This document shows, piece after piece, positions 7,848 through 33,787 of a stretch of DNA of 34,193 nt. Where the stretch lies: NCBI GenBank assembly GCA_017882715.1, contig JADGOY010000021.1:1-34193 (forward strand). Reading direction: 5' to 3'. Within the stretch, counting starts at the first letter, position 1; each line of letters opens with the position of its first letter. Both the position numbers and the translations under genes were made by a program. The notes beneath the pieces were generated by a model. It was not told the DNA's origin, made no database searches, and saw only the letters and a list, made by a program, of their open reading frames with translations. This stretch comes from Nakamurella sp. (lineage in GTDB: Bacteria; Actinomycetota; Actinomycetes; Mycobacteriales; Nakamurellaceae).

Positions 7848-8750
7848 GTGGCGCGCAGTCCCTGGTACGAGAAAGGCAACGCCTGGCTGACTTTTTGCCA
7901 GGTCGTCATGTATCCGTCGGCATTCCTGCTCGGCCGTAAGCGCGTCGTCGGGTCGGACAAGTTGTCCCGCAGCGGCGGGTACCTACTGGTTGCCAACCAC
8001 ATCTCGCACCTCGACCCGCTGTACGACTCGGTGGTGGTCCGGCAGGCCGGCCGGGTGCCGCGGTTCCTGGCCAAGGCGTCACTGTGGAAGGCGCCCGTGC
8101 TGGGCCGGGCACTGGCCAATACGGAGCAGATCCCGGTGAAACGCAGCGGCGCAGGCGCCGGCCAGGCAAGCCTGGAGAAGGCCACCGCAGCGCTGCGCAA
8201 CGGGAAGCTGGTGCTGATCTATCCGGAGGGCACCGTCACCCGCGACCCGGACCACTGGCCGATGAAGCCGCGCCCTGGCGTCGGTGCCCTCGCGCTGAGC
8301 GGCGACTTCCCGGTGATCCCCATGGCGCATTGGGGGACTCACCAGGTGTACAGCTCCTATGTCGAGGGCCGGCGGTTTCACCCGCTGCCGCGCAAGGACA
8401 TTCACATCGTCATCGGCGATCCGATCGATCTGACGGAACTGCGCTCGCGGCCGGTGGACACGCGAGCGATCCGCGACGCCACGTTGCTGATCATGAACGC
8501 GCTGCGCGACATGGTGGCCGAGATCCGCCACGAGCCGGCGCCCACGGCGTATTTCGACCTCAAGAAGTCCGAACGGCTGGCGAGCCGGCAGGCCGAGAAG
8601 GCGGCTGCCTCCGCCGCGGCGGTGACCGGTGGGGTCGGGACCGGTGCGGCTGGGACCGGTGCGGCTGGGACCGGTGCGGCTGGGACCACCGAGACGGTGA
8701 CGCCTGCTGTGGGCGGTGCGCAGCAGTCCGGAGATGAGGCGATCAGTTGA
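7848..8750 (+). CDS. plsC: 1-acylglycerol-3-phosphate O-acyltransferase (PlsC family)
   Basis: The enzyme acylates lysophosphatidic acid to phosphatidic acid at the membrane. It is 300 residues. Acyltransferase motifs are in order: NHISHLDP (the HX4D catalytic pair), a [16 protein letters not shown] block, [10 protein letters not shown], and VIPMAHWGT. The GTG at 7848 has AGAAGGAG 7 bases upstream. The last 60 residues are Ala/Gly-rich and include a 15-bp tandem repeat (GTGAA unit). The stop codon overlaps the TTG start of gpsA (TTGA), which makes glycerol 3-phosphate, so the two consecutive steps of phospholipid entry are translationally coupled. The exact acyl acceptor is inferred from the family. 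Confidence 0.92.
8637..8681 (+). repeat. 15-bp tandem repeat, three copies, in the plsC tail
   Basis: The unit GGGACCGGTGCGGCT is repeated exactly three times (8637-8651, 8652-8666, 8667-8681), followed by a 6-base partial copy. It is in frame and encodes Gly-Thr-Gly-Ala-Ala repeats near the C-terminus of PlsC, outside the catalytic fold. The identity of the copies suggests recent slippage. Confidence 0.9.
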
Positions 8751-22182: not shown

Positions 22183-23789
22183 TCTCCGCGCCCGGCGACG
22201 GCTCCGGCGACCAGCCTGACGGCGTGCCGCTCGAGGACGGTGACCATTCTTGTGATCATTCTGGTGATCATTCAGACGTCGCCGAGGCCGGCGTGATCGG
22301 CTGGGACGCGGGGAATCTCGGCATCCCCGACCTCGCGGCAGACGAGTCGCTGATCGACCCCACCGGCGAGATCGCCGCAGCCACCGCCGATCTCGACGAC
22401 GATTCACCGGCCGAGGCGGCCGACCGGGTGCCGGACGCGCCGCCGTTGACGCTGCCGGTCGTCGAGGCGCTGCTGAACCGCCGGCGGTCGGAAGTGCAGA
22501 TCTCACCGACGTTGTCCCGGATCACCGCGCTGATGGACCTGTTGGGCAACCCGCAGCGCGCCTACCCGGTCATCCAGATCGCCGGCACCAACGGAAAGAC
22601 CTCGACGGCCAGGATGATCGACGCGCTGCTCACCCTGATGGGCCTGCGCACCGGCCGGTTCACCTCGCCGCACCTGCAACTCGTCACCGAACGGATCGCC
22701 ATCGACGGGGCGCCGATCCCCGTCGAACGCTACGTCGAGACCTACGCGGACATCGCTCCCTACGTCGACCTGATCGACGCGTCCAGCGCCCGCGAGGACG
22801 GGCTGCCGCTGTCGAAGTTCGAGATCCTCACTGCGATGGCGTTTTCGGCTTTCGGTGACGCGCCGGTGGAGGCCGCGGTGATCGAGGTGGGACTGGGCGG
22901 GACCTGGGACAGTTCCAACGTCGCCGACGCCGGCGTCGCGGTGATCACGCCCATCGGGATCGACCACACCGAATATCTGGGCGACACGCTGACCGAGATC
23001 GCCGGCAACAAGGCCGGGATCATCAAACGGGACGCCGTCGCGATCATCGGGCCGCAGGAACCGGAGGCGATGAACACCATCCTGCGACGGACGATCGAGG
23101 TCGATGCCAGCGTCGCCCGGTTCGGCAGCGAGTTCACCGTGCTCGACCGGGCGGTCGCGGTCGGTGGCCAACGGCTCACCTTGCAGGGTCTGGGCGGGGT
23201 CTACGAGGACGTTTTCGTGCCGCTCGCCGGCGAGCACCAGGCAGTCAACGCCGCGGTGGCGCTGGCCGCGGTGGAGGCCTTCTTCGGCGCCGGGTCCAGC
23301 CGTCAGCTCGACATCGCTTCTGTCCAAGATGGTTTCGCCGCGGTCGCCTCGCCCGGCCGGTTGGAACGGGTCCGCACGTCGCCGACGATCATGGTGGACG
23401 CGGCGCACAATCCGCACGGCGCGACGGCCCTGGCGGCGGCGCTGGCGGCCGAGTTCTCCTTCTCCCGGCTCGTCGGGGTGCTTGCCGTGATGGCGGACAA
23501 GGACGCCCTGGGAATCCTGCAGGCATTGGACGACACCTTCGACGAGATCGTGGTCACCAGGAACTCCTCGCCCCGGTCCATGCCGGTTGCCGACCTGGCC
23601 GACCTCGCGGCGGACGTGTTCGGCGAGGAACGGGTGCACACCGCGGCGCGGATGGACGAGGCGATCGCGCTGGCGGTGGACCTGGCCGAATCGGGATTCG
23701 AGGACTCGTCGGGCACCGGGGTGGTGATCACCGGGTCGGTCGTGTCGGCCGGTGACGGCCGCGCCCTCGCCGGTCTGGGGCCGGAATGA
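22179..23789 (+). CDS. folC: Bifunctional folylpolyglutamate synthase / dihydrofolate synthase
   Basis: FolC adds glutamate to dihydropteroate and extends folate polyglutamate tails with ATP. The P-loop is GTNGKTST at 136-143. Also present are [56 protein letters not shown] and [11 protein letters not shown]. The protein is 536 residues because of an acidic extension of about 90 residues (Asp, Glu, Ala, Gly) holding a DHS repeat near positions 22-33. The GTG at 22179 overlaps the valS stop, supporting translation of the extension. The valS-folC-DUF4233-ndk order is conserved in mycobacteria. Confidence 0.96.
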
Positions 23790-24229
23790 GCGAGTCAGGC
23801 GGCACGCGGGAGACCCGCCCCGATCCGTCACCCGCATCCCCCCGCGCCACCCGGCCCTACGACCCGGAACGCGGCCTGCGCGGCGTCATGTCCGCCGCCC
23901 TGGTGCTGGAGGCCGTCACGGTGCTGCTCGCCATCCCTGTCGCGGCGAACACCGGTGGCGGGGTCGGTCCGACCGGCGTGAGCATCATCTGCGTGCTGGC
24001 GGTGCTGCTGATCGGCGCCTGCGCGATCGTCTCCCGCCCGTACGCGGTGCCGGTGATCCTGACCCTGCAGGCCCTGATGATCGCGTGCTGGGTGATTACT
24101 CCGCCGCTGGGCATCATGGGCATCGTGTTCGGTTTGGTGTGGGCGCTCATCCTGTGGTTCCGTGGCGAATTCCGGCGGCGGCTCGCGGCCGGTACGGTGC
24201 CTGGGCCGCCGAAGACCGCGCCGCAGTAG
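23786..24229 (+). CDS. DUF4233 integral membrane protein
   Basis: The protein is 147 residues. After a Pro/Arg-rich N-terminus of about 30 residues, [23 protein letters not shown] begins a four-helix membrane domain (helices about 34-53, 62-80, 84-103, 107-126), with a basic C-terminal tail. The pattern and position between folC and ndk match DUF4233 (Rv2446c-like), which has no known function. The ATG overlaps the folC stop by 4 bases (ATGA), so translation is coupled. Confidence 0.9.
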
Positions 24230-24276
24230 CCGCGAGTCGACCCAGCACCTCGTCAACCCAGTCAGCCGACAAGAAC

Positions 24277-24297
24277 GATCCGCCGCCTTCGCGGATC
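24277..24297 (+). promoter_or_regulatory. Perfect inverted repeat in the ndk leader
   Basis: GATCCGC (24277-24283) and GCGGATC (24291-24297) pair perfectly around a 7-base loop. The hairpin ends 29 bases before the ndk GTG. It may be a leader stem-loop, an operator or a terminator of the folC-DUF4233 transcript; no T run follows. Confidence 0.4.
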
Positions 24298-24326
24298 CAC
24301 CGCCCGAAACAAGGGAGTTCCCGCTT

Positions 24327-24737
24327 GTGTCCGAACGCACGCTGGTCCTGATCAAGCCCGACGGCGTCGCCCGGGCCTTGGTCGGCGAGATCATCTCGAG
24401 GATCGAACGCAAGGGTTTGAGGCTGGTCGCCCTGGATCTGCGGGTTGTCGACGTCAGCGTCGCCAAGGTCCATTACGCCGAGCACGAGGGCAAGCCGTTC
24501 TACGATGCCTTGGTGGAATTCATCACCGGCGGGCCGCTGGTCGCCGCGGTGATCGAGGGGCCGCGGGCGGTGACCGCGTTCCGGCAGCTCGCCGGCGGCA
24601 CCGACCCCGTGGAGAAGGCCTCCAACGGCAGCATTCGCGGCGATTTCGGGCTGGAGACCCGCACCAACCTCGTTCACGGATCGGATTCGGTGGAATCGGC
24701 CGAGCGCGAGATCGGATTGTGGTTCCCCGAGCTGTGA
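24327..24737 (+). CDS. ndk: Nucleoside diphosphate kinase
   Basis: Ndk transfers the gamma-phosphate between nucleoside triphosphates and diphosphates. The protein is 136 residues, the normal length. It opens [21 protein letters not shown], carries [10 protein letters not shown], and the phosphohistidine is H117 in [16 protein letters not shown]. The GTG at 24327 is chosen because AAGGGAG lies 9 bases upstream and the Ndk fold starts immediately; the frame is open further upstream without similarity. The stop overlaps the next gene's GTG (GTGA). Confidence 0.97.
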
Positions 24738-25399
24738 GCGGACCCGTCGAACCATCGCCGCTCGTCAACGATCTACCCGGTCCGGACCAGGTCACCCTGC
24801 GCAGGGTCGGCCCCGGCGGGACCTGGGCGTCGGACAGCGCGTTCGGCGTCGCGCTGGTCACCCTGTGGCACCGGGTCGCCGAGGCCGGCGGAGCGGTCGG
24901 CTTCGCCCCGTCGGTGAGCCGCGCCGAGGTCGCGGCGGTGGTCGCGGGCCTGGTGGACGACCTGCGCTCCGGCCGGGCGTTCGGGTTCGCGTTGAACCGC
25001 AACCGGACGCTGGTGGGTGTCGGAGTGCTGCGGCCGGGGCGCGGACTGTCCAGTCACACCGGCGAGATCGTCGCGGTGATGGTCGACCCTGAGCTCCGCG
25101 GATCGGGGTCGGGGACGCGACTGATGACCGCGCTGATCTCACAGGCCCGCGACGGGGGCCTGCAGAAACTCCAGGCGGCCATCCGTGACGGAGAGGGACT
25201 GGACGGATTCTTCGGAAGATTCGGGTTCGTCGAGTGGGGCCGCCGCCCGGGGTGGATCCGATTCGGGCCGGCGCAGGATCGCGACGAGATCATCTTGGGA
25301 GCCGACCTGGGCGCAGCAGTCATCAGCACACCAGTCATCGAGACATCCGACCAGGGCACAGCCGGCGTGAACAGAGCCGACTCCGGACCAGCGCAGTGA
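24734..25399 (+). CDS. GNAT-family N-acetyltransferase
   Basis: The protein is 221 residues. The acetyl-CoA-binding motif is visible in the second half: [31 protein letters not shown] (R-G-x-G-x-G type), followed by the [32 protein letters not shown] end strand. The N-terminal part ([18 protein letters not shown]...) is less clear. The C-terminal 35 residues are variable. The GTG at 24734 overlaps the ndk stop, and its own stop overlaps the cyclase-like gene (GTGA), so ndk, GNAT and cyclase are one translationally linked unit. The acceptor substrate is unknown. Confidence 0.85.
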
Positions 25400-26148
25400 C
25401 CAGCGGAGCGACCGGCTCATCCCGACGGATCGTCGACCTGTCCCACCCGATTGCGGACGGCATGGTCACCTACCCGGGCATTCCCGCACCCGTCATCGGC
25501 ACCCATTTGTCGTTCGACGAGTCGGCATCCCACTACGCGGCCGGCACCGAGTTCACCATCGCCACCATCTCGATGGCTGCCAACACCGGGACGTACCTGG
25601 ACACGCCGGCGCACCGCTACCGCGGGGGTGAGGACCTCGCGGCGGTGCCCCTGGAGCTCATGGTCGAGTTGGACGGCGTGGTGGCCAGGGTGTTCGACGT
25701 CGACAGCCCGGCCCGCACGGACCTGACCGGCAGCTCGCCCGCGACGGGCGCCGGCTCCATCGGCCATCCGATCGACGAGGAGCAGCTGCGCTCGGCGCTG
25801 GGCGACGCCGATCTGAGCGGCCGGGCCGTGCTGGTGCACACGGGCCACGCACGCCTTTGGGGTGGGCCTGGATACTTCACCGCCCACCCCTATCTCACCG
25901 ACGACGCGGCGGAATTCCTGGTGTCAGCCCGACCGGCTCTGGTCGGGATCGACTCGCTGAACATCGACTCGACGCACACCGGTCGGCGGCCGGCGCACAC
26001 CTGGCTGCTGGCAGCCGGCATCCCGATCGTCGAGCACCTCACCGCGCTGGATCAATTGCCGGACAGCGGCTTTCGGTTCTCCGCCGCGCCGCCTGCGGTG
26101 CACTGCATGGGGACGTTCACGGTGCGTGCCTACGCCGTCGTGGGGTAG
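25396..26148 (+). CDS. Cyclase / kynurenine-formamidase-like hydrolase (PF04199)
   Basis: The protein is 250 residues. It begins IVDLSHPIADGMVTYPGIPAP, the standard opening of the cyclase family. The metal-binding motif HxGTHxDxPxH appears as NTGTYLDTPAHRY: the aspartate and last histidine remain but the first two histidines are Asn and Tyr. This form occurs, from memory, in an actinobacterial subfamily, so metal binding or chemistry may differ from KynB. LVGIDSLNIDSTHTGRRPAHTWLLAAGIPIVEHLTALD matches the later conserved region. The GTG at 25396 overlaps the GNAT stop. No other tryptophan-catabolism genes are near, so a kynurenine role is not supported. Confidence 0.85.
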   Translation: MTSGATGSSRRIVDLSHPIADGMVTYPGIPAPVIGTHLSFDESASHYAAGTEFTIATISMAANTGTYLDTPAHRYRGGEDLAAVPLELMVELDGVVARVFDVDSPARTDLTGSSPATGAGSIGHPIDEEQLRSALGDADLSGRAVLVHTGHARLWGGPGYFTAHPYLTDDAAEFLVSARPALVGIDSLNIDSTHTGRRPAHTWLLAAGIPIVEHLTALDQLPDSGFRFSAAPPAVHCMGTFTVRAYAVVG

Positions 26149-26459
26149 CTCACCGCGTCGCCGCATCCCATCACTGAGCTGGTGACATCTCGCATCGACC
26201 GCCCAGGTGAGATTCGATCGGGTGTCAAGCGGTGACAGTCTCCTCTGATTGGTCTTCGGTGCGCCCCGAGTTCCTGGACCTCAAGACGCCGTGGCTCGCC
26301 CATCCCCAGTAGGTCTGCGACCGCCAGCATGCCGCACGAATCACCGACGACCTTGCTCAGCGTGCAGTCACGTCCGCAAGCCGCTGAATCCGAGCACCGT
26401 GAGACCATTTCCGAATGCATGCGCTCATCGCCCATGAGGAGGAGGACCTGGCGGCGCCG
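26149..26459. other. Intergenic stretch without a recognisable gene
   Basis: No convincing gene is seen in these 311 bases. A minus-strand frame (26435 to 26130, 101 codons) is open but overlaps the end of the cyclase gene, resembles nothing known to me and has no ribosome-binding site that stands out. Base composition is less GC-rich than the flanking genes. It may be degraded sequence. Confidence 0.5.
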
Positions 26460-26771
26460 TCAGCGATGCGCGCGGCCTTGAAGGTCCTGCCGTCCGGTGG
26501 CCAGGAACGCCCAACCCACCATCACTGTGCCCAGGAACAGCAGACCCAGCCCGATGATCACCGGGCCGGCGATGTGCAGGCCGGTGCCGGCCAACATCAC
26601 GGGCGCGGACGCCGTCGGCGGTACAGAGGGGTGCTCGTGCAGGTCGGCTGACGCGGACGGCGCAGCGAGGACAGTGAAAGCCAGCGTCAGCAATGCGATG
26701 GCCACAGCGGTGAGGACAGTCTCCCGCGTGCGCGGTCGGCGACCGGTCGCGCGTCGCTTGACCATCGGCAT
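26460..26771 (-). CDS. Small secreted protein with LAGTG sortase-E-type anchor
   Basis: The product is 103 residues. Residues 5-16 are basic, 19-37 hydrophobic, and a signal-peptidase site is likely after ASA (42). A short segment of about 20 residues (DLHEHPSVPPTASAPVM) leads to LAGTG at 60-64, matching the LAxTG motif of class E sortases in high-GC Gram-positives. A membrane helix (about 69-93) and a polar, basic tail ending GRAHR follow. If processed, only about 20 residues would be linked to the wall. The ATG at 26771 has GAGG 5 bases upstream; GTG 26777 and ATG 26765 are alternatives. No sortase gene is in the window. Function unknown. Confidence 0.68.
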   Translation of the reverse strand: MPMVKRRATGRRPRTRETVLTAVAIALLTLAFTVLAAPSASADLHEHPSVPPTASAPVMLAGTGLHIAGPVIIGLGLLFLGTVMVGWAFLATGRQDLQGRAHR

Positions 26772-26773
26772 GC

Positions 26774-27358
26774 TCACCTCACAGACTCATGGCCCGAGCG
26801 GGCCGGCAACATTCCAGAATAGGACGCGCGGGCACCGAGGCGGGTTGCGGCGCCGCGATCGCCCGAACGTGTCGATTGCAGCGTATTCGCCTGGCCGTCG
26901 GAGTAGTGCAGCACGCGCCGTGGCGCCGCGAACATCGGCCGAACCCACGGTGGGGCATCCGCGAACTCCGCAGGTTCGCGGTCGAGCCTGAACGGACGAC
27001 GGTGAGCAAATACAACTCCGGGGTTGGTCGGCGAAAGGACCGCCGACCACGTCAAGCGGGCAGTTACCTTTTCCGGTGCACGTGGGAACCTCCCACCAGG
27101 CACAGCCAGTTTCGGACCGACCCACGCGAGGTGTCTTGCCCGGCTCAGGTCGACCACGGCGGTGCGCACTCTCGCGGCGAGCTGAGCAACCGGTTCACCG
27201 AATCGGTGGGCGGCCGAGGCTGAACGGCGGTCGCCGCCGAACTCGGGCAATGGCGTCGGTCGGTGCGCCGCATTCGAGTGCGCTGCACGCTGGGCCCGAT
27301 CAAGCACGTGGGCAGCCATGACCGCACGGTGTTGGTGACTGCTGTCGTCTGTCAACAT
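26774..27358 (-). CDS. Doubtful hypothetical reading frame
   Basis: This minus-strand frame of 194 codons starts at an ATG (27358) and its stop falls 2 bases before the ATG of the LAGTG protein gene, a spacing that would suit an operon. The predicted product (MLTDDSSHQHRAVMAAHVL start) has no recognised domain, signal peptide or membrane segment. Frames are often open by chance in DNA of this GC content, and its codon third positions look less GC-biased than those of neighbours. It may be a decayed gene or non-coding. Nothing else in 26780-27415 is convincing. Confidence 0.2.
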   Translation of the reverse strand: MLTDDSSHQHRAVMAAHVLDRAQRAAHSNAAHRPTPLPEFGGDRRSASAAHRFGEPVAQLAARVRTAVVDLSRARHLAWVGPKLAVPGGRFPRAPEKVTARLTWSAVLSPTNPGVVFAHRRPFRLDREPAEFADAPPWVRPMFAAPRRVLHYSDGQANTLQSTRSGDRGAATRLGARASYSGMLPARSGHESVR

Positions 27359-27415
27359 CGGTGGCTCCGGCAAACCGCGCGGCGGTCTTGGTGCCCGGCG
27401 GTAGCGTCGCACCCC

Positions 27416-28459
27416 ATGAGGGAACGGCGAGCGCCGCGCCGGATCGGGGACGACCCGTCGGTCACCCGGTCTGCTGACGCGATGCCACACCCGGCCGGCG
27501 CGAACGGGGAACCCGAGAAAGCCGCGCCGATGATCGCCGCTCGCAGGCTGTGCAAGACCTTCCCGACGGCGTCAGGTCGGCCCGTGGAGGCGGTCCGTGG
27601 CATCGACGTGCAGGTGGAACGCGGCGAGTCCTTCGGCTTCCTCGGCCCCAACGGCGCGGGCAAGTCCTCGACCATGCGGATGATCGCCTGCGTGTCCGCG
27701 CGGACCGGGGGAGAGTTGTCCATTCTGGGCATGGACCCCGACCTCGACGGTGTCCGGATCCGCGGTCGGTTGGGGGTGGTGCCGCAACAGGACAACCTGG
27801 ACGTCGAGTTGACCGTGCGGGAGAACCTCATCATTTACGGGCGCTATTTCGGCATTTCCCGGTCCGAATGCCGCCGGCGGGCCCAGGAGCTGGTGGAATT
27901 CGCGCAACTGACCGACAAGGCCGACACCAAGGTCGACGTGCTGTCCGGCGGGATGAAGCGCCGGCTGACCATCGCCCGCTCGTTGATCAACGACCCGGAG
28001 CTGCTGCTGCTCGACGAGCCGACCACCGGCCTCGACCCACAGGCTCGACATGTGTTGTGGGACAGACTGTTCCGGTTGAAGAACGAGGGCGTCACGCTGG
28101 TCGTCACCACGCACTACATGGACGAGGCGGAGCAGCTGTGCGACCGGCTGGTGGTGATGGACGGCGGCGTGATCGTCGCCGAGGGCTCGCCCAAGGCATT
28201 GATCGGCGCATACTCCTCCCGGGAGGTCTTGGAATTGCGGTTCCTGCCCGGCACCCAACAGCAGGCCGAACCGCTGGTCACCGATCTGGTGGAGCGGGTC
28301 GAGGTTCTCCCTGACCGGTTGCTGCTGTACACCGAGGACGGCGAGGCGACCCTGGAAGCCGCGCATTCTCGCGGGGTGCGGCCCCGATCGACGCTGGTGC
28401 GACGGTCCACCCTGGAGGACGTCTTCCTGCGGCTGACCGGCCGTAGCCTGGTGGACTGA
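27416..28459 (+). CDS. ABC exporter ATP-binding subunit (NodI/DrrA type)
   Basis: The protein is 347 residues. The Walker A is GPNGAGKSS at about 77-85, followed by the Q-loop (VVPQQDNLDVELTVRENL), signature LSGGMKRR, Walker B LLLLDEPTTGLDP and switch histidine in VTTHYMDEAEQLCDR. The C-terminal part (VLELRFLPG... to RRSTLEDVFLRLTGRSLVD) matches NodI/DrrA-type exporters. The first 40 residues are a variable extension. ATG 27416 is chosen tentatively; ATG 27482 is possible. TAGCGT 8 bases before 27416 could be a -10 box. The stop and the first permease start share one base (TGATG). Confidence 0.93.
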   Translation: MRERRAPRRIGDDPSVTRSADAMPHPAGANGEPEKAAPMIAARRLCKTFPTASGRPVEAVRGIDVQVERGESFGFLGPNGAGKSSTMRMIACVSARTGGELSILGMDPDLDGVRIRGRLGVVPQQDNLDVELTVRENLIIYGRYFGISRSECRRRAQELVEFAQLTDKADTKVDVLSGGMKRRLTIARSLINDPELLLLDEPTTGLDPQARHVLWDRLFRLKNEGVTLVVTTHYMDEAEQLCDRLVVMDGGVIVAEGSPKALIGAYSSREVLELRFLPGTQQQAEPLVTDLVERVEVLPDRLLLYTEDGEATLEAAHSRGVRPRSTLVRRSTLEDVFLRLTGRSLVD

Positions 28460-29289
28460 TGGCCACCCTCGACCACTCCCACACCCGCCCGAGCAGCAGC
28501 CCGAGTGTGCCGTCCGGTGGGCGGTTGATGGTCTGGGAGTACCTGCTTCGGTGCTGGCGCCGGTACGCGATCCCCAGCCTGGCGGAGGCGATCGGCACGC
28601 CGCTGCTGTACCTGCTTGCGCTCGGTCTGGGACTCGGCTCGTTGGTGGATGCAGGGCCGCAATCGGCGGCACTGGGCGGGGTGAGCTACCTGCAGTACAT
28701 CGCCCCGGCGTTGCTCGTCGCGGCCGCGCTGCAGATCGGGGTCAGCGAGGGCTCCTATCCCGCCTACAGCCGCTTCAAATGGAGCAGGGTCTTCTGGGGC
28801 GTGACAGCCACTCCGGTCACCCCGGGGCAGGTGTGCGACGGCGAGGTGTTGTTCATCGGTACCCGGCTGCTCGCCGCGTCCACGCTGTACTACCTGGTGC
28901 TGCTGATGTTCGGGGTGGCCGGCGGCCCAGCCGGGCTGTTGATGATCCCGTCCGGCATGCTCACCGGGATCGCCTGTGCCGTGCTGATACTGGCGCTGGG
29001 TGCTGTGCTGCAGTCGGACGGCGGCGCTTTCGCGATGGTCTTTCGTTTCGTGGTCGTCCCGATGACGCTGTTCTCCGGCTCGTTCTTCCCGATCACGCAG
29101 CTGCCGCTCGCGGTCCGCTGGCTGGTGTGGATCTCGCCGCTGTGGCACGGCAACGAGCTGGCTCGCGGGTTCGTGCTGGGCACCGCGGAACCCTGCTCGA
29201 CCATCGGTCATGCGGCGTTCCTGGCAGCGCTGTTCGTCGCCGGCCTGGTGCTGGCGCGCCGGCTCTACCGGCGGCGGCTGATCGTATGA
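28459..29289 (+). CDS. ABC-2 type permease, first (NodJ-like)
   Basis: The protein is 276 residues with about six membrane helices. Conserved ABC-2/NodJ features include LEYLLRCWRRYAIPSLAEAIGTPLLYLLALG-like opening, GGVSYLQYIAPALLVAAALQ, and the late SGSFFPITQLPLAVRWLVWISPLWHGNELARGFVLG. It lies directly between the ATPase and a second related permease, overlapping 1 base upstream and 4 bases downstream. The two permeases probably form a heterodimer exporting a lipid, glycolipid or drug-like molecule; the substrate cannot be read from sequence. Confidence 0.9.
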   Translation: MATLDHSHTRPSSSPSVPSGGRLMVWEYLLRCWRRYAIPSLAEAIGTPLLYLLALGLGLGSLVDAGPQSAALGGVSYLQYIAPALLVAAALQIGVSEGSYPAYSRFKWSRVFWGVTATPVTPGQVCDGEVLFIGTRLLAASTLYYLVLLMFGVAGGPAGLLMIPSGMLTGIACAVLILALGAVLQSDGGAFAMVFRFVVVPMTLFSGSFFPITQLPLAVRWLVWISPLWHGNELARGFVLGTAEPCSTIGHAAFLAALFVAGLVLARRLYRRRLIV

Positions 29290-30125
29290 CCGGCTCGACG
29301 GTTTCACCCCAACCGGCCGCGCCGACCACCCGGCGCCCTTCGACCCTGATCTCGCGGGTGCTGCCGCTGCAGCTCTACGCGGGCCGCGCTCATGTGGTTC
29401 TGGAGCGGTCCCTGCTGGTGAGCCGGCGGGTCTGGTGGATCGTGTTGTCCGGGTTCTTCGAGCCGGTGTTCTTCCTGTTCGCGATGGGCAAGGGGCTCGG
29501 TGCGCTGGTCGGCGACGTGGGCGGAGTCAGCTACGCCGCGTACATCGCGCCCGCGCTGCTGGCGACGTCCGCGATGAACGGCGCGCTGTACGACTCGGTG
29601 CACAACGTGTTCTTCGAGTTGCGGTACGAGAAGCTCTACGACGCCATGCTGGCCACCTCGCTGGGCCCGATGGACGTGGCACTGGGCAAGATCGCCTGGT
29701 CGCTGCTGCGCGGCGGTCTCTACTCCATTGCCTTCGTGAGCGTCATGGCCGCGATGCGTTTGCTCTCGTCGTGGTGGGCGTTGCTGGCGGTTCCCGCCGC
29801 ACTGCTCATCGCGCTCGGTTTCGGCGCGGTCGGTATGGCTGTCGCGAGCTTCCTCACCACGTTCCAGCAGCTGGATTGGGTGGACACCGCGATCCTGCCG
29901 ATGTTCCTGTTCTCGACGACGTTCTACCCGCTGGATGTCTACCCGCGGGGCGTTCAGATCGTCGTGGAGTGCCTGCCGCTCTACCAGGGCATCGAGTTGA
30001 TGCGCGGTTTGTGCCTCGGTCCGGTCTCGCCGAGTCTGCCCTGGCATGCGCTGTACTTCCTGATCATGGCGGTGATCGGCCTGGTGGTGGCCTCCCGCAG
30101 GCTCGGCACGCTGTTGCTGAAATGA
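29286..30125 (+). CDS. ABC-2 type permease, second (NodJ-like)
   Basis: The protein is 279 residues with about six membrane helices after a 30-residue Pro/Thr-rich cytoplasmic start. VGGVSYAAYIAPALLATSAMNGALYDSVHNVFFELRYEKLYD and FSTTFYPLDVYPRGVQIVVECLPLYQGIELMRGLCLG parallel the first permease. It starts at an ATG overlapping the first permease's stop (ATGA). A longer open frame reaching into that gene is in the wrong register for its product. With the ATPase it forms a complete three-gene exporter. Confidence 0.9.
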   Translation: MTGSTVSPQPAAPTTRRPSTLISRVLPLQLYAGRAHVVLERSLLVSRRVWWIVLSGFFEPVFFLFAMGKGLGALVGDVGGVSYAAYIAPALLATSAMNGALYDSVHNVFFELRYEKLYDAMLATSLGPMDVALGKIAWSLLRGGLYSIAFVSVMAAMRLLSSWWALLAVPAALLIALGFGAVGMAVASFLTTFQQLDWVDTAILPMFLFSTTFYPLDVYPRGVQIVVECLPLYQGIELMRGLCLGPVSPSLPWHALYFLIMAVIGLVVASRRLGTLLLK

Positions 30126-30451
30126 CCTGGGTTGGACTTCCTGGTGCGCGGTTCTGTCCGGTCATGCGAGCGGGCCGCCGGCCGTCGGCACGCCGTGTGG
30201 GATACTGACAGAGGTTCTGTGCCGAAACAGTCGGTAAAGAACCCGGGCCTGGTCGGTGCAGGAGCGGTCCTCGGCCCCGGTGAGTGAGACGCCGGGCCGC
30301 GTCGAGGACGGATCTCCGCGAGCCGATCGGCACGACGCTCACCAGACTTCCCGCCGCCGGTGACCACCGGGCTGCGGGTCCGAAGAATGTACGGGGTCCC
30401 TGTGCGGACGCGTCTTGTACGCGCCCGGGGGCCTCGGGGAGGACTACACGC
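30126..30451 (+). other. Long leader region upstream of the RNase E/G gene
   Basis: These 326 bases separate the exporter from rne and show no credible gene. A GATACT box at 30201-30206 preceded by TGTGG could be an extended -10 element, which would leave an untranslated leader of about 240 bases. Long leaders are known for E. coli rne, where they mediate autoregulation; whether that applies here is open. Confidence 0.35.
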
Positions 30452-33400
30452 ATGTCGATCACACCCACCCTCGAGAGCGCTCTCGCCGATCTGCCGGCCA
30501 AGCCGCGAGTGCACGAGCTGTCCAAGAGGATCGGGATCAGCAACAAGGAACTGCTCACCGCGCTGGCCGAGCGTGGTCTGACGATCAAGAGCGCCTCGTC
30601 CTCCGTGCCACCGGACGTCGCGCTCGAGGTCATCGAGGCCCTTCTGTCACCCGGCACAGTCGGCACAGCAGGCCAGAGCAGCGCGGATGACGCGACCGCC
30701 GATGCCGGTGCCGGTGCCGGTGCCGAGGAGCAAACGAGCGCCGAGCGCCCAGACTCGGAACCGGCCCGTCAACACCCGGACCTGCCGACCGGGACACGGC
30801 CGTTGTTCCTGCCACCCGAGGTCGTCGACGGCGACGCGACGACGGACTCCGGGCAGGCCGGCGACAGGTCCGGACCAGAGGACACCGACGGCTCGCAAGG
30901 TCGGCCCAGTAGCTCGGGTCGGCGACGGCGAGGCCGCTCGGGGCGGCGTGGCGGCGGTGGGCAGACCGGCGAGTCGGAGCCGACCCTGGTTGATCAGACC
31001 CCGGAGGTCACCGCCGACGGTCCCATCGGCGGCGGTGCCGACGCTGCGGCCGCAGGCGAGGGCAGTCCCGAAGGCGAGTCCGCCCAAAGCGAGTCCGCCG
31101 ACGACGACACCGCGGATGAGGGCACCGGCGAGGACCAGGCCGGTGCCGACTCGAGTGGCCGTGGACGGCGCCGTCGGCGTGGTCGCCGGGGACGTGGCCG
31201 GGTGACCGACGATGCCGCCGAGTCCGCGGACAGTGCCCGGGCCGAGGACACCGACGAGGACGGCGCAGCGGGTGGCGCAGACAGCGACACGGCGACCGAA
31301 CCGGAGTCGGGCGAGGCACCGGGGTCGGACGAAAGCGACGAGACCGACGAGCGGGCCACCGGCAGCACCGGTAATCGCCGCCGCCGTCGTCGTCGCCGTC
31401 GGGTGACCGGCGAGGATGGTCCACGCGAGGACGACCCGGACAACACGGTCGTGCATGTCCGCGAACCCCGGTTGTCGGGCGTGTCCGGCTCCATAGGCGC
31501 TGCCGGTTCCTCGGCATCTTCCGAGGTGCAGGGCGTCCGCGGCTCGACCCGGCTGGAGGCCAAGCGGCAACGGCGTCGCGATTCCCGTGACACCCGCCGC
31601 CGCCCGCAGATCCTGACCGAGGCCGAGTTCCTGGCCCGGCGCGAGTCGGTCGAACGCGTCATGGCGGTTCGGCAACGCGGCGACCTGGCTCAGGTCGCCC
31701 TGCTCGAGGACGGTATCCTGGTCGAGCACTTCGTCTCCCGGGCCGGGTCCGACTCGATGATCGGCAGCGTCTTCCTCGGCAAGGTGCAAAATGTGCTGCC
31801 CTCGATGGAAGCCGCGTTCGTGGACATCGGCCGCGGGCGTAATGCCGTGCTGTATGCGGGCGAGGTCAACTGGGACGCGGCCGGGCTGGCCGGCAAGGCT
31901 CGTCGCATCGAGACCGCGCTGTCCAGCGGCGACACCATCCTGGCGCAGGTGTCCAAGGATCCGATCGGACACAAGGGTGCCCGGCTGACCACCCAGATCT
32001 CGCTGCCGGGGCGGTTCCTCGTCTACGTCCCCAACGGCGGTGCCACCGGGATCTCGCGGAAACTGCCGGACACCGAGCGCAAGCGGTTGAAGTCGATCCT
32101 GGACCGGATCGTTCCCGACGACGCCGGGGTGATCATCAGGACCGCCGCCGAGGGCATCGCGGAGGACGAACTCGCCCGCGACGTGGAGCGGCTGAAGTCC
32201 CAATGGGAGGACATCTCCCGCGGAGCGGCGGCCAAGACGTCCGGGCCAACCCTGCTGTACGCCGAGCCCGGCACGTTGCTCAAGGTCGTGCGTGACCTGT
32301 TCAACTCCGACATCAGCCGCCTGGTGGTGGACGGGGACGACGCCTACGAGCCGGTCGCCGAATACATCAACGCGGTTGCTCCGGAACTGGCGGACCGGCT
32401 TTCCCGTTACGAGGCACCCGCGGGTGGCGGCGATGTCTTCGCCACTTACCGGGTCGACGAGCAGATCGGCAAGGCCCTGGAGCGCAAGGTTCATCTGCCT
32501 TCGGGCGGTTCACTGGTGATCGACCGGACCGAGGCCATGACGGTGGTCGACGTCAACACCGGCAAGTACACCGGATCGGGAGGCAACCTCGAAGAAACGG
32601 TCACCAGGAACAACCTGGAGGCCGCGGAGGAGATCGTCCGTCAGCTGCGGCTGCGGGACATCGGCGGGATCATCGTCATCGACTTCATCGACATGGTCCT
32701 GGAGTCCAACCGGGAACTGGTGCTCCGCAGGCTGACCGAGTGTCTGGGCCGCGACCGCACGCGGCACCAGGTCGCCGAGGTGACATCCCTCGGACTCGTG
32801 CAGATGACCCGCAAGCGGATGGGCACCGGGCTGCTGGAGGCGTTCTCCGAACCGTGCCCGCACTGCGGCGGTCGCGGGATCCTGTTGCACGATGCGCCCA
32901 TCGACCTGACACCGGGCGAGGACGCGCCGACCGAGCGGCGCTCGGGCAAGAACCGCCGCAACCGCGGTCGTGACGCCGAGCCCGCGGAGGACGTGGTCAC
33001 CAGGGTGCAGCACGCGCTCGGGCGCAAGCCCGATCCGCGGGGCCCCAAGCCACCGCCGGTCCTCGTGGGCGCGGACATCGGCGACGACCTCGACGTCGTC
33101 GCCCGGGGCGATACCGACGACGGGCCTGCTCACAACGGCGCTGCTCGTCACGGCGCCGGCGCCGAAGACCAGGCCCAGGGCGACGATCAGGCCGATGCTT
33201 CGCCCGGCGAGCAGCCCGCACCGGACACACTCGCCGACGCGGTCGGGGGCCGCGTCGACGTTCTCGACACCGCCGTCGTCGACGGCGACGTGCTGAATGC
33301 CGATATCGAGGTGGTCGCGCCGACCGCGTGGGCCGCAACGGCCGACGAAACAGCGTCAGAGCCGCGCCCACCACGACGGAGCCGCCGTGCGGCCGGCCGC

Positions 33401-33787
33401 CCGGCCGGCGCGCCCAGTGGGGCCGCGCAGGCGGTGGACATCATCGTGCGGCCCGTCAGCTCGGAGTCCGGTGCTGCCGAGTCCTCCGATGGTGATCACG
33501 GTTCCGGTGGCGGGTGGTCGGATGCTCAGTCGGACGAGAACGCATCCCACGTGATCACCGTCGATCCCGGCCAGCCGGACGCCGTCAACGGCGACTCGGA
33601 CGCACATGTGAACGGCGACGGCGCGACCGAACCGACCGCCCCAGCGGCACCGGTCCGGCGACGGGCGGCTCGCCGTCCAGCCGGTCCTGCGGCCGCGCCG
33701 ATCCCCGTCGACCGGGTTGACGAGACCGGGCCGACGGATCACCTGGAGCAACCCGACAACGCCGACGAGTCGGTGCCCGTTGTCTGA
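30452..33787 (+). CDS. rne: Ribonuclease E/G with N-terminal IF2_N domain
   Basis: This is the main endoribonuclease of RNA decay and rRNA/tRNA processing. The protein is 1111 residues. Residues about 17-66 (PRVHELSKRIGISNKELLTAL...) are an IF2_N domain, as at the start of initiation factor 2. Residues about 70-400 are disordered, acidic with basic RRRRGRRGRGR patches. The S1 domain is about 430-530 (VFLGKVQNVLPSMEAAFVDIG). Catalytic aspartates correspond to D700 in VVDVNTGKYTG and D744 in VIDFIDM. The Zn-link is C802/C805 in CPHCGGRG. The tail (815-1111) is disordered with Arg clusters. ATG 30452 has GGGGAGG 9 bases upstream and begins just before the IF2_N domain. Confidence 0.95.
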   Translation: MSITPTLESALADLPAKPRVHELSKRIGISNKELLTALAERGLTIKSASSSVPPDVALEVIEALLSPGTVGTAGQSSADDATADAGAGAGAEEQTSAERPDSEPARQHPDLPTGTRPLFLPPEVVDGDATTDSGQAGDRSGPEDTDGSQGRPSSSGRRRRGRSGRRGGGGQTGESEPTLVDQTPEVTADGPIGGGADAAAAGEGSPEGESAQSESADDDTADEGTGEDQAGADSSGRGRRRRRGRRGRGRVTDDAAESADSARAEDTDEDGAAGGADSDTATEPESGEAPGSDESDETDERATGSTGNRRRRRRRRRVTGEDGPREDDPDNTVVHVREPRLSGVSGSIGAAGSSASSEVQGVRGSTRLEAKRQRRRDSRDTRRRPQILTEAEFLARRESVERVMAVRQRGDLAQVALLEDGILVEHFVSRAGSDSMIGSVFLGKVQNVLPSMEAAFVDIGRGRNAVLYAGEVNWDAAGLAGKARRIETALSSGDTILAQVSKDPIGHKGARLTTQISLPGRFLVYVPNGGATGISRKLPDTERKRLKSILDRIVPDDAGVIIRTAAEGIAEDELARDVERLKSQWEDISRGAAAKTSGPTLLYAEPGTLLKVVRDLFNSDISRLVVDGDDAYEPVAEYINAVAPELADRLSRYEAPAGGGDVFATYRVDEQIGKALERKVHLPSGGSLVIDRTEAMTVVDVNTGKYTGSGGNLEETVTRNNLEAAEEIVRQLRLRDIGGIIVIDFIDMVLESNRELVLRRLTECLGRDRTRHQVAEVTSLGLVQMTRKRMGTGLLEAFSEPCPHCGGRGILLHDAPIDLTPGEDAPTERRSGKNRRNRGRDAEPAEDVVTRVQHALGRKPDPRGPKPPPVLVGADIGDDLDVVARGDTDDGPAHNGAARHGAGAEDQAQGDDQADASPGEQPAPDTLADAVGGRVDVLDTAVVDGDVLNADIEVVAPTAWAATADETASEPRPPRRSRRAAGRPAGAPSGAAQAVDIIVRPVSSESGAAESSDGDHGSGGGWSDAQSDENASHVITVDPGQPDAVNGDSDAHVNGDGATEPTAPAAPVRRRAARRPAGPAAAPIPVDRVDETGPTDHLEQPDNADESVPVV

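Follow-up and report, generated by a model that had tools for sequence, protein, structure and literature searches.

A genus-restricted gene of Nakamurella predicted to encode a miniature class E sortase substrate

Known class E sortase substrates and small LAxTG proteins

Sortases are seen as display machines for folded surface proteins. The closest described systems are substrates of class E sortase (SrtE): the available part of one report (PMC13251363) describes as SrtE-dependent the Actinoplanes proteins SspA, CwpA and CwpB and the long chaplins of Streptomyces, which combine a signal peptide, a sorting pentapeptide, a helix and a basic tail, as does the small protein studied here. The same portion of text gives LPVTG as the motif of the three Actinoplanes substrates, so that class E does not mean LAxTG alone. 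It also places the products of Actinoplanes cwpA-G at 219-762 aa, with disordered regions in CwpA-F, and names GN motifs, mostly with a Cys pair, as features of chaplin domains (PMC13251363). Small LAxTG proteins are likewise an already named kind, through the model NF058583 (LAXTG_small_WW, 54 positions), which resembles our protein in its small size and in a membrane helix that follows LAxTG.

The gene examined here lies in a window of 34,193 nt, the whole stretch of DNA that was analysed, from the draft genome of a Nakamurella sp. (G000 below; 403 contigs, 4.65 Mb, 88.6% complete). From sequence comparisons, we consider it reasonably probable that this is a true gene of Nakamurella and that its product is a miniature class E sortase substrate, one that would leave a short peptide bound to the wall. 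An earlier note on this DNA had proposed a sortase-E-type substrate of miniature size, and its frame, conserved motif and syntenic orthologues bear it out as a real conserved gene. Judged by sequence, it adds a genus-restricted member to a kind of surface protein already described, the class E sortase substrates; it differs from the large Actinoplanes Cwp proteins in an exported part of just 9-23 aa across the family.

Membership of NF058583 was rejected: five orthologues (genomes G001, G002, G006, G015 and G008) match the sorting-signal part of this model (E 1.6e-4 to 0.005), with 16.5-21.2 bits against a cut-off of 65, and neither the G000 protein nor its orthologue in G013 matches at all. 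None of 296 genomes of the phylum has a protein over that cut-off. Nine of 20 loci elsewhere with matches below it were analysed by script, seven giving an ORF and two nothing, and some of the seven ORFs are short LAxTG-type proteins of other lineages. Against the LPXTG anchor model TIGR01167 (cut-off 15.9), one of the seven orthologues scores high enough, that of G015 with 17.2 bits, and the G000 protein matches neither this nor any other sorting-signal model in NCBIfam or Pfam. No family in these two collections names the protein in the members scanned, three of which have no Pfam family over its cut-off, and a literature search by title and abstract start returned nothing on it or on small class E substrates.

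A chaplin was rejected on the 9-23 aa of the exported part, the lack of Cys in all seven members and the lack of a Pfam family in the three members scanned. Sortase-assembled pilins carry an acceptor lysine in their exported part. Lysine is missing from the exported parts of all seven proteins, and we discarded a pilin on this ground and a disulphide or isopeptide partner on the joint absence of Cys and Lys. Within the genus itself, long LAxTG wall proteins have a sorting signal of the same style (LAxTG...P...G), but they have long exported domains and, in the four look-alikes compared, a helix ending in FFGTRG, as opposed to WAFL in the small protein.

Anatomy and conservation of the small protein

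The reading frame is open from 26460 to 26777 on the (-) strand (105 aa, no inner stops in the translation; stop codon 26460-26462), and starts alternative to that in Table 1 are an ATG at 26771 (103 aa) and a GTG at 26777 (105 aa). We favour the ATG at 26765 because of the GAGGTG hexamer nine nucleotides before it, and the 101-aa form is thus the most likely one on the sequence. GC content by codon position (0.71/0.56/0.82) is as expected for a GC-rich coding frame; a scan for consensus promoters and terminators over 26100-27500 found none. The signal peptide, the LAGTG, the membrane helix, the basic tail and the approximately 20 exported residues of the earlier note can all be read in the translation, with 17 residues exported.

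Table 1. Locations of the features discussed, in window coordinates unless a locus label (L) is given.
Feature	Location	Strand	Remarks
Gene for the small LAxTG protein	26460..26765	(-)	101 aa from ATG 26765; translation, and orthologues at one site
GAGGTG, ribosome-binding-site-like	26775..26780	(-)	9 nt before ATG 26765; read from sequence
Signal peptide (basic n-region, hydrophobic core, ...SASA)	26646..26765	(-)	Sequence; model helix 17-38
Exported segment DLHEHPSVPPTASAPVM	26595..26645	(-)	17 aa, no Cys, no Lys; translation
LAGTG sorting motif	26580..26594	(-)	L, A, T and G kept in 7/7 orthologues
Membrane helix (..PV..G...L..G.....WAFL) and basic tail ending GRAHR	26463..26579	(-)	Alignment, AlphaFold model
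DUF4233 (PF14017)	23786-24229		Upstream of GNAT
ndk (PF00334)	24162-24737		Upstream of GNAT
GNAT acetyltransferase	24719..25399	(+)	Conserved flank of site
Putative cyclase (PF04199)	25234..26148	(+)	At site in G000 and G002 of the seven genomes with the small gene; not counted in its system
ABC transporter, ATPase and two permeases, NodI/NodJ-like	27263..30125	(+)	Divergent from the small gene
Ribonuclease E (rne)	30284..33787	(+)	Conserved far flank
Second small LAxTG protein	L355:4392-4700 (G000:C153)	(-)	About 103 aa, 37 exported, LASTG
Second small family, other members	L356 near 8225-8563	(+)
Second small family, other members	L359-L362

Seven orthologues, that of G000 included, keep L, A, T and G of the motif without exception, with G, T, S, T, Q, A and S at the variable position, in agreement with the expectation that LAGTG would be conserved. 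After the motif, I, P, V, G, L, G and WAFL are invariant (7/7), and all seven proteins have a terminal HR, RH or HH pair. Mean pairwise identity is 0.34 in the signal peptide, 0.21 in the exported part and 0.57 from LAxTG to the end, the borders of these segments being approximate and the signal-peptide cleavage sites having been set by eye with the A-x-A rule. The exported parts (9-23 aa) are 42% Pro, Ser and Thr when pooled, contain one to four acidic residues each, and lack both Cys and Lys in 7/7; no conserved motif precedes LAxTG in the seven orthologues.

A folded exported domain is unlikely on the AlphaFold model, which was built from seven sequences and has a mean pLDDT of 68 and a pTM of 0.36. 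The model places helices at residues 17-38 and 66-103 with low confidence in between; over residues 41-70, pLDDT by block is 47-57, from a shallow alignment. The suggestion that the exported peptide is too small for a folded domain thus agrees with the model. Substitution rates, which we estimated by the Nei-Gojobori method, unreliable in genes this GC-rich, gave a dN/dS of 0.33 for the closest pair (G001-G006) and 0.63-1.39 for four more distant pairs, with single segments up to 1.98. These values do not demonstrate purifying selection.

Class E sortase in Nakamurella

Two sortase-domain proteins are encoded in G000, one of which is a class E sortase, as the earlier reading demanded (239.3 bits; NF033747 cut-off 160). 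Class E sortases over the cut-off occur in all 17 Nakamurella genomes, each with the tyrosine of a GHY motif and a TLTTC active-site stretch. In the part of PMC5148588 available, the conserved Tyr229 of S. coelicolor SrtE1 is proposed to recognise the Ala of LAXTG; this tyrosine was located from codon context in the methods of that paper. With a signal peptide, the motif, a membrane helix and a C-terminal basic tail, our protein has the layout of a class E substrate in both sequence and model, and its sorting by a sortase is well supported as a prediction from sequence. Because the sortase occurs in 17/17 genomes and the small gene in 7/17, SrtE must have other substrates in Nakamurella, and long LAxTG proteins are indeed present in several of these genomes.

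Locus and distribution

All seven genes lie at one syntenic site, flanked by valS, folC, DUF4233, ndk and GNAT on one side and by rne on the far side, and every one of them is encoded on the opposite strand from these conserved neighbours (neighbour gene names were checked on one representative each). After rne come rplU, rpmA and obg in the six other genomes; the G000 window stops earlier. The earlier note had placed the gene in the most irregular part of the window; its flanking genes are orderly and conserved, and the small gene sits between them in a gap of approximately 1.1-1.3 kb. In part of Nakamurella, an ABC-2 type transporter occupies the space that separates the GNAT/cyclase genes from rne. 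This transporter is at the site in five of the seven genomes with the small gene (not in G002 and G015) but also in five of the 10 without it, and we rejected a link between the two.

A first search of 61 genomes, including G000, found six clear homologues besides the G000 protein, all within Nakamurella, and the profile used for the genus and the order was built from all seven proteins. Strong matches (E 6e-28 or better) occurred in seven of the 17 Nakamurella genomes, and three further genomes had weak partial matches, two of which are long LAxTG proteins and one of which lacks a sorting signal. Across 298 genomes of the order, the strong matches were solely those in the same seven Nakamurella genomes, while weaker partial matches appeared in 13 others, one of them Nakamurella. 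The remaining 12 genomes belong to other genera (E 8e-8 or worse), and the two of these matches that were read (L074, L079) are not convincing members. Among these 298 genomes, then, sequence searches find the family just in Nakamurella.

The other 10 Nakamurella genomes retain both SrtE and the site, and none has a similar ORF there among the candidates passing our motif filter. Both the ndk flank and the transporter or rne flank were located in these genomes, and in seven of the 10 the sequence examined extended as far as rne. The gene is therefore dispensable. On a tree built from 1171 columns, with at most five proteins from each genome (rne was missing from five genomes and GNAT from two), the presence pattern needs four changes, at least three of them forced by well-supported branches, and 38 of 500 shuffles scored as low as the observed pattern. 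Because the site is fixed, an early origin followed by several losses is the simplest reading, although not a proven one.

Other small LAxTG proteins in the genus

To survey G000 for further substrates we used the codon pattern YTSGCSNNSACSGGS for [LF]AxTG, which had 147 matches (77 for a control pattern); all 98 places of CT type and 31 of the 49 of TT type, nine of these 31 being TTG (Leu), were examined by script. The pattern covers Leu/Phe-type LAxTG, with LPxTG, LSxTG and A/T-ending codons outside it, and three of the pieces stop at contig ends. Six ORFs passed the filter, four of which (L286, L290, L323 and L332) were dropped by eye as multi-helix frames or as not membrane anchors. Among the 98 CT-type and nine TTG motifs, at least two are in a convincing substrate layout, our protein included, a lower bound in view of the motifs that the pattern covers and of the incomplete assembly.

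The second protein (G000:C153) is a similar short LAxTG protein of the kind that the earlier note had suggested looking for in the genome. It shares the bare-anchor anatomy, which thus recurs in a second small family, but differs in its longer exported part (37 aa in G000) and in a mature start of Tyr-Pro or Tyr-Val-Pro, and similarity between the two families is weak (E 0.005 in a single comparison). A relative in G016 has in common with it a PYPAPPVT stretch, and when both were combined into a profile, further small members with LAWTG or LSYTG motifs emerged in G013, G001, G008 and G006. This second family thus occurs in six of the 17 Nakamurella genomes, and in five of the six it lies immediately downstream of a DUF4012 gene of the same orientation. 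The available part of PMC5412050 names a DUF4012 gene among those of an EPS locus in Bifidobacterium longum, and a sortase link to an exopolysaccharide system is possible for the second family. In G000 the genes around the second small gene encode a UDP-glucose dehydrogenase, a PEP carboxylase and a 1314-aa protein. The two small families occur together in five genomes (P = 0.018 for co-occurrence, a weak result that ignores kinship).

Two further observations concern this family. The 1314-aa protein that adjoins the G000 member (L355:329-4270, (-) strand) has a signal-like start, laminin-G and PKD domains and a propeller-like part. In addition, the exported part of the G013 member (L359) contains three APTSGSV-like repeats in tandem, as though the length of a stalk varied through such repeats.

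Proposed function and competing explanations

As we picture it, the small protein would be exported through Sec and lose its signal peptide. The C-terminal helix would then hold it in the membrane until SrtE cuts between the Thr and Gly of LAxTG and joins the Thr to a stem peptide of the cell wall, cleavage and linkage that we infer because the motif is invariant and the sortase is present. The wall would keep approximately 13-27 residues (the 9-23 exported ones and LAxT), rich in Pro, Ser and Thr, net acidic and probably disordered. Such a covalent decoration might change charge, spacing or the availability of cross-links, and the peptide might perhaps be O-glycosylated. A match to the PMT family in G000 (7.4e-8) lends glycosylation little support, as it is weak and unspecific, the same family also responding in eight of 14 control genomes. 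Twenty residues, fully stretched, measure approximately 7 nm, which is less than a typical Gram-positive wall. The peptide is thus too short to cross a thick wall and probably acts inside or at it rather than as a displayed protein; we regard display to the outside as unlikely and a role within the wall, speculative as it is, as more likely.

Several competing explanations bear on this reading. The membrane segment might itself be functional: the C-terminal remnant, or the small protein left uncut, could act within the membrane, for instance by signalling to a sensor, as sortase remnants reportedly do in Streptococcus gordonii. We think this unlikely, even though conservation is highest from LAxTG onwards (0.57, against 0.21 in the exported part) and this segment has the invariant WAFL and the terminal HR, RH or HH pair in all seven members. 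Over their first 32 columns, the sorting signals of the long look-alikes (G012, G002, G009 and G004) are more conserved still (0.79 against 0.64), so the helix may simply be a good sorting signal; moreover, His near the C-terminus is also found in some long substrates, and no sensor gene is among the neighbours common to the seven loci. Alternatively, the gene could be a relic, the bare anchor of a formerly longer surface protein that is drifting and being lost. Its patchy presence (7/17, with four changes on the tree), the very variable exported part and the dN/dS values of up to 1.39 in distant pairs would fit such decay; yet frame and sorting motif are intact at one site in seven divergent genomes, and dN/dS is 0.33 in the closest pair, which makes a relic rather improbable in our judgement.

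That the wall-bound peptide tethers a polysaccharide or some other secreted protein appears more doubtful again, and we give this reading little weight. What speaks for it is the second family, downstream of DUF4012 in five of six genomes, together with the DUF4012 gene of the B. longum EPS locus (in the part of PMC5412050 available); but this link belongs to the second family, no named common neighbour of the small gene is secreted, and the exported part has neither Cys or Lys for a covalent link nor a conserved motif before LAxTG. Of the earlier interpretation, accordingly, the sortase-E-type substrate with a tiny exported part stands, and the developmental surface peptide or secreted-protein partner is not supported, the lack of Cys and Lys arguing against disulphide partners and pilus-type acceptors. 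As for the idea that the frame is open merely by chance in GC-rich DNA between genes, high-GC DNA is rich in spurious frames (6 kb here contain 52 ORFs of 50 aa or more), but orthology, synteny, conservation of the motif and GC by codon position refute this idea and we set it aside with next to no reservation.

If the small protein is indeed a miniature class E substrate, SrtE could be viewed in this Nakamurella lineage as a wall peptide ligase, concerned with chemical modification of peptidoglycan by short peptides and not with display of folded proteins. We entertain this only tentatively and think it improbable: it draws on just two LAxTG substrates having been detected in G000, both bare anchors, and is made less likely by the LPVTG motif of the Actinoplanes substrates, which falls outside our survey pattern. 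Still, the two small families make it easy to test whether wall modification with plain peptides is also among the tasks of sortases, and the predicted product is small enough for direct detection as a modified muropeptide by mass spectrometry.

The second sortase of the genome

The other sortase of G000 is class-F-like, with 134.7 bits, under the class F cut-off of 166. Encoded next to it is a protein that begins with a signal-like segment and ends in PAGTG plus a membrane helix (L002:1489-2214 and L002:2253-3140, both on the (-) strand), and these two are possibly a dedicated pair with an unusual motif.
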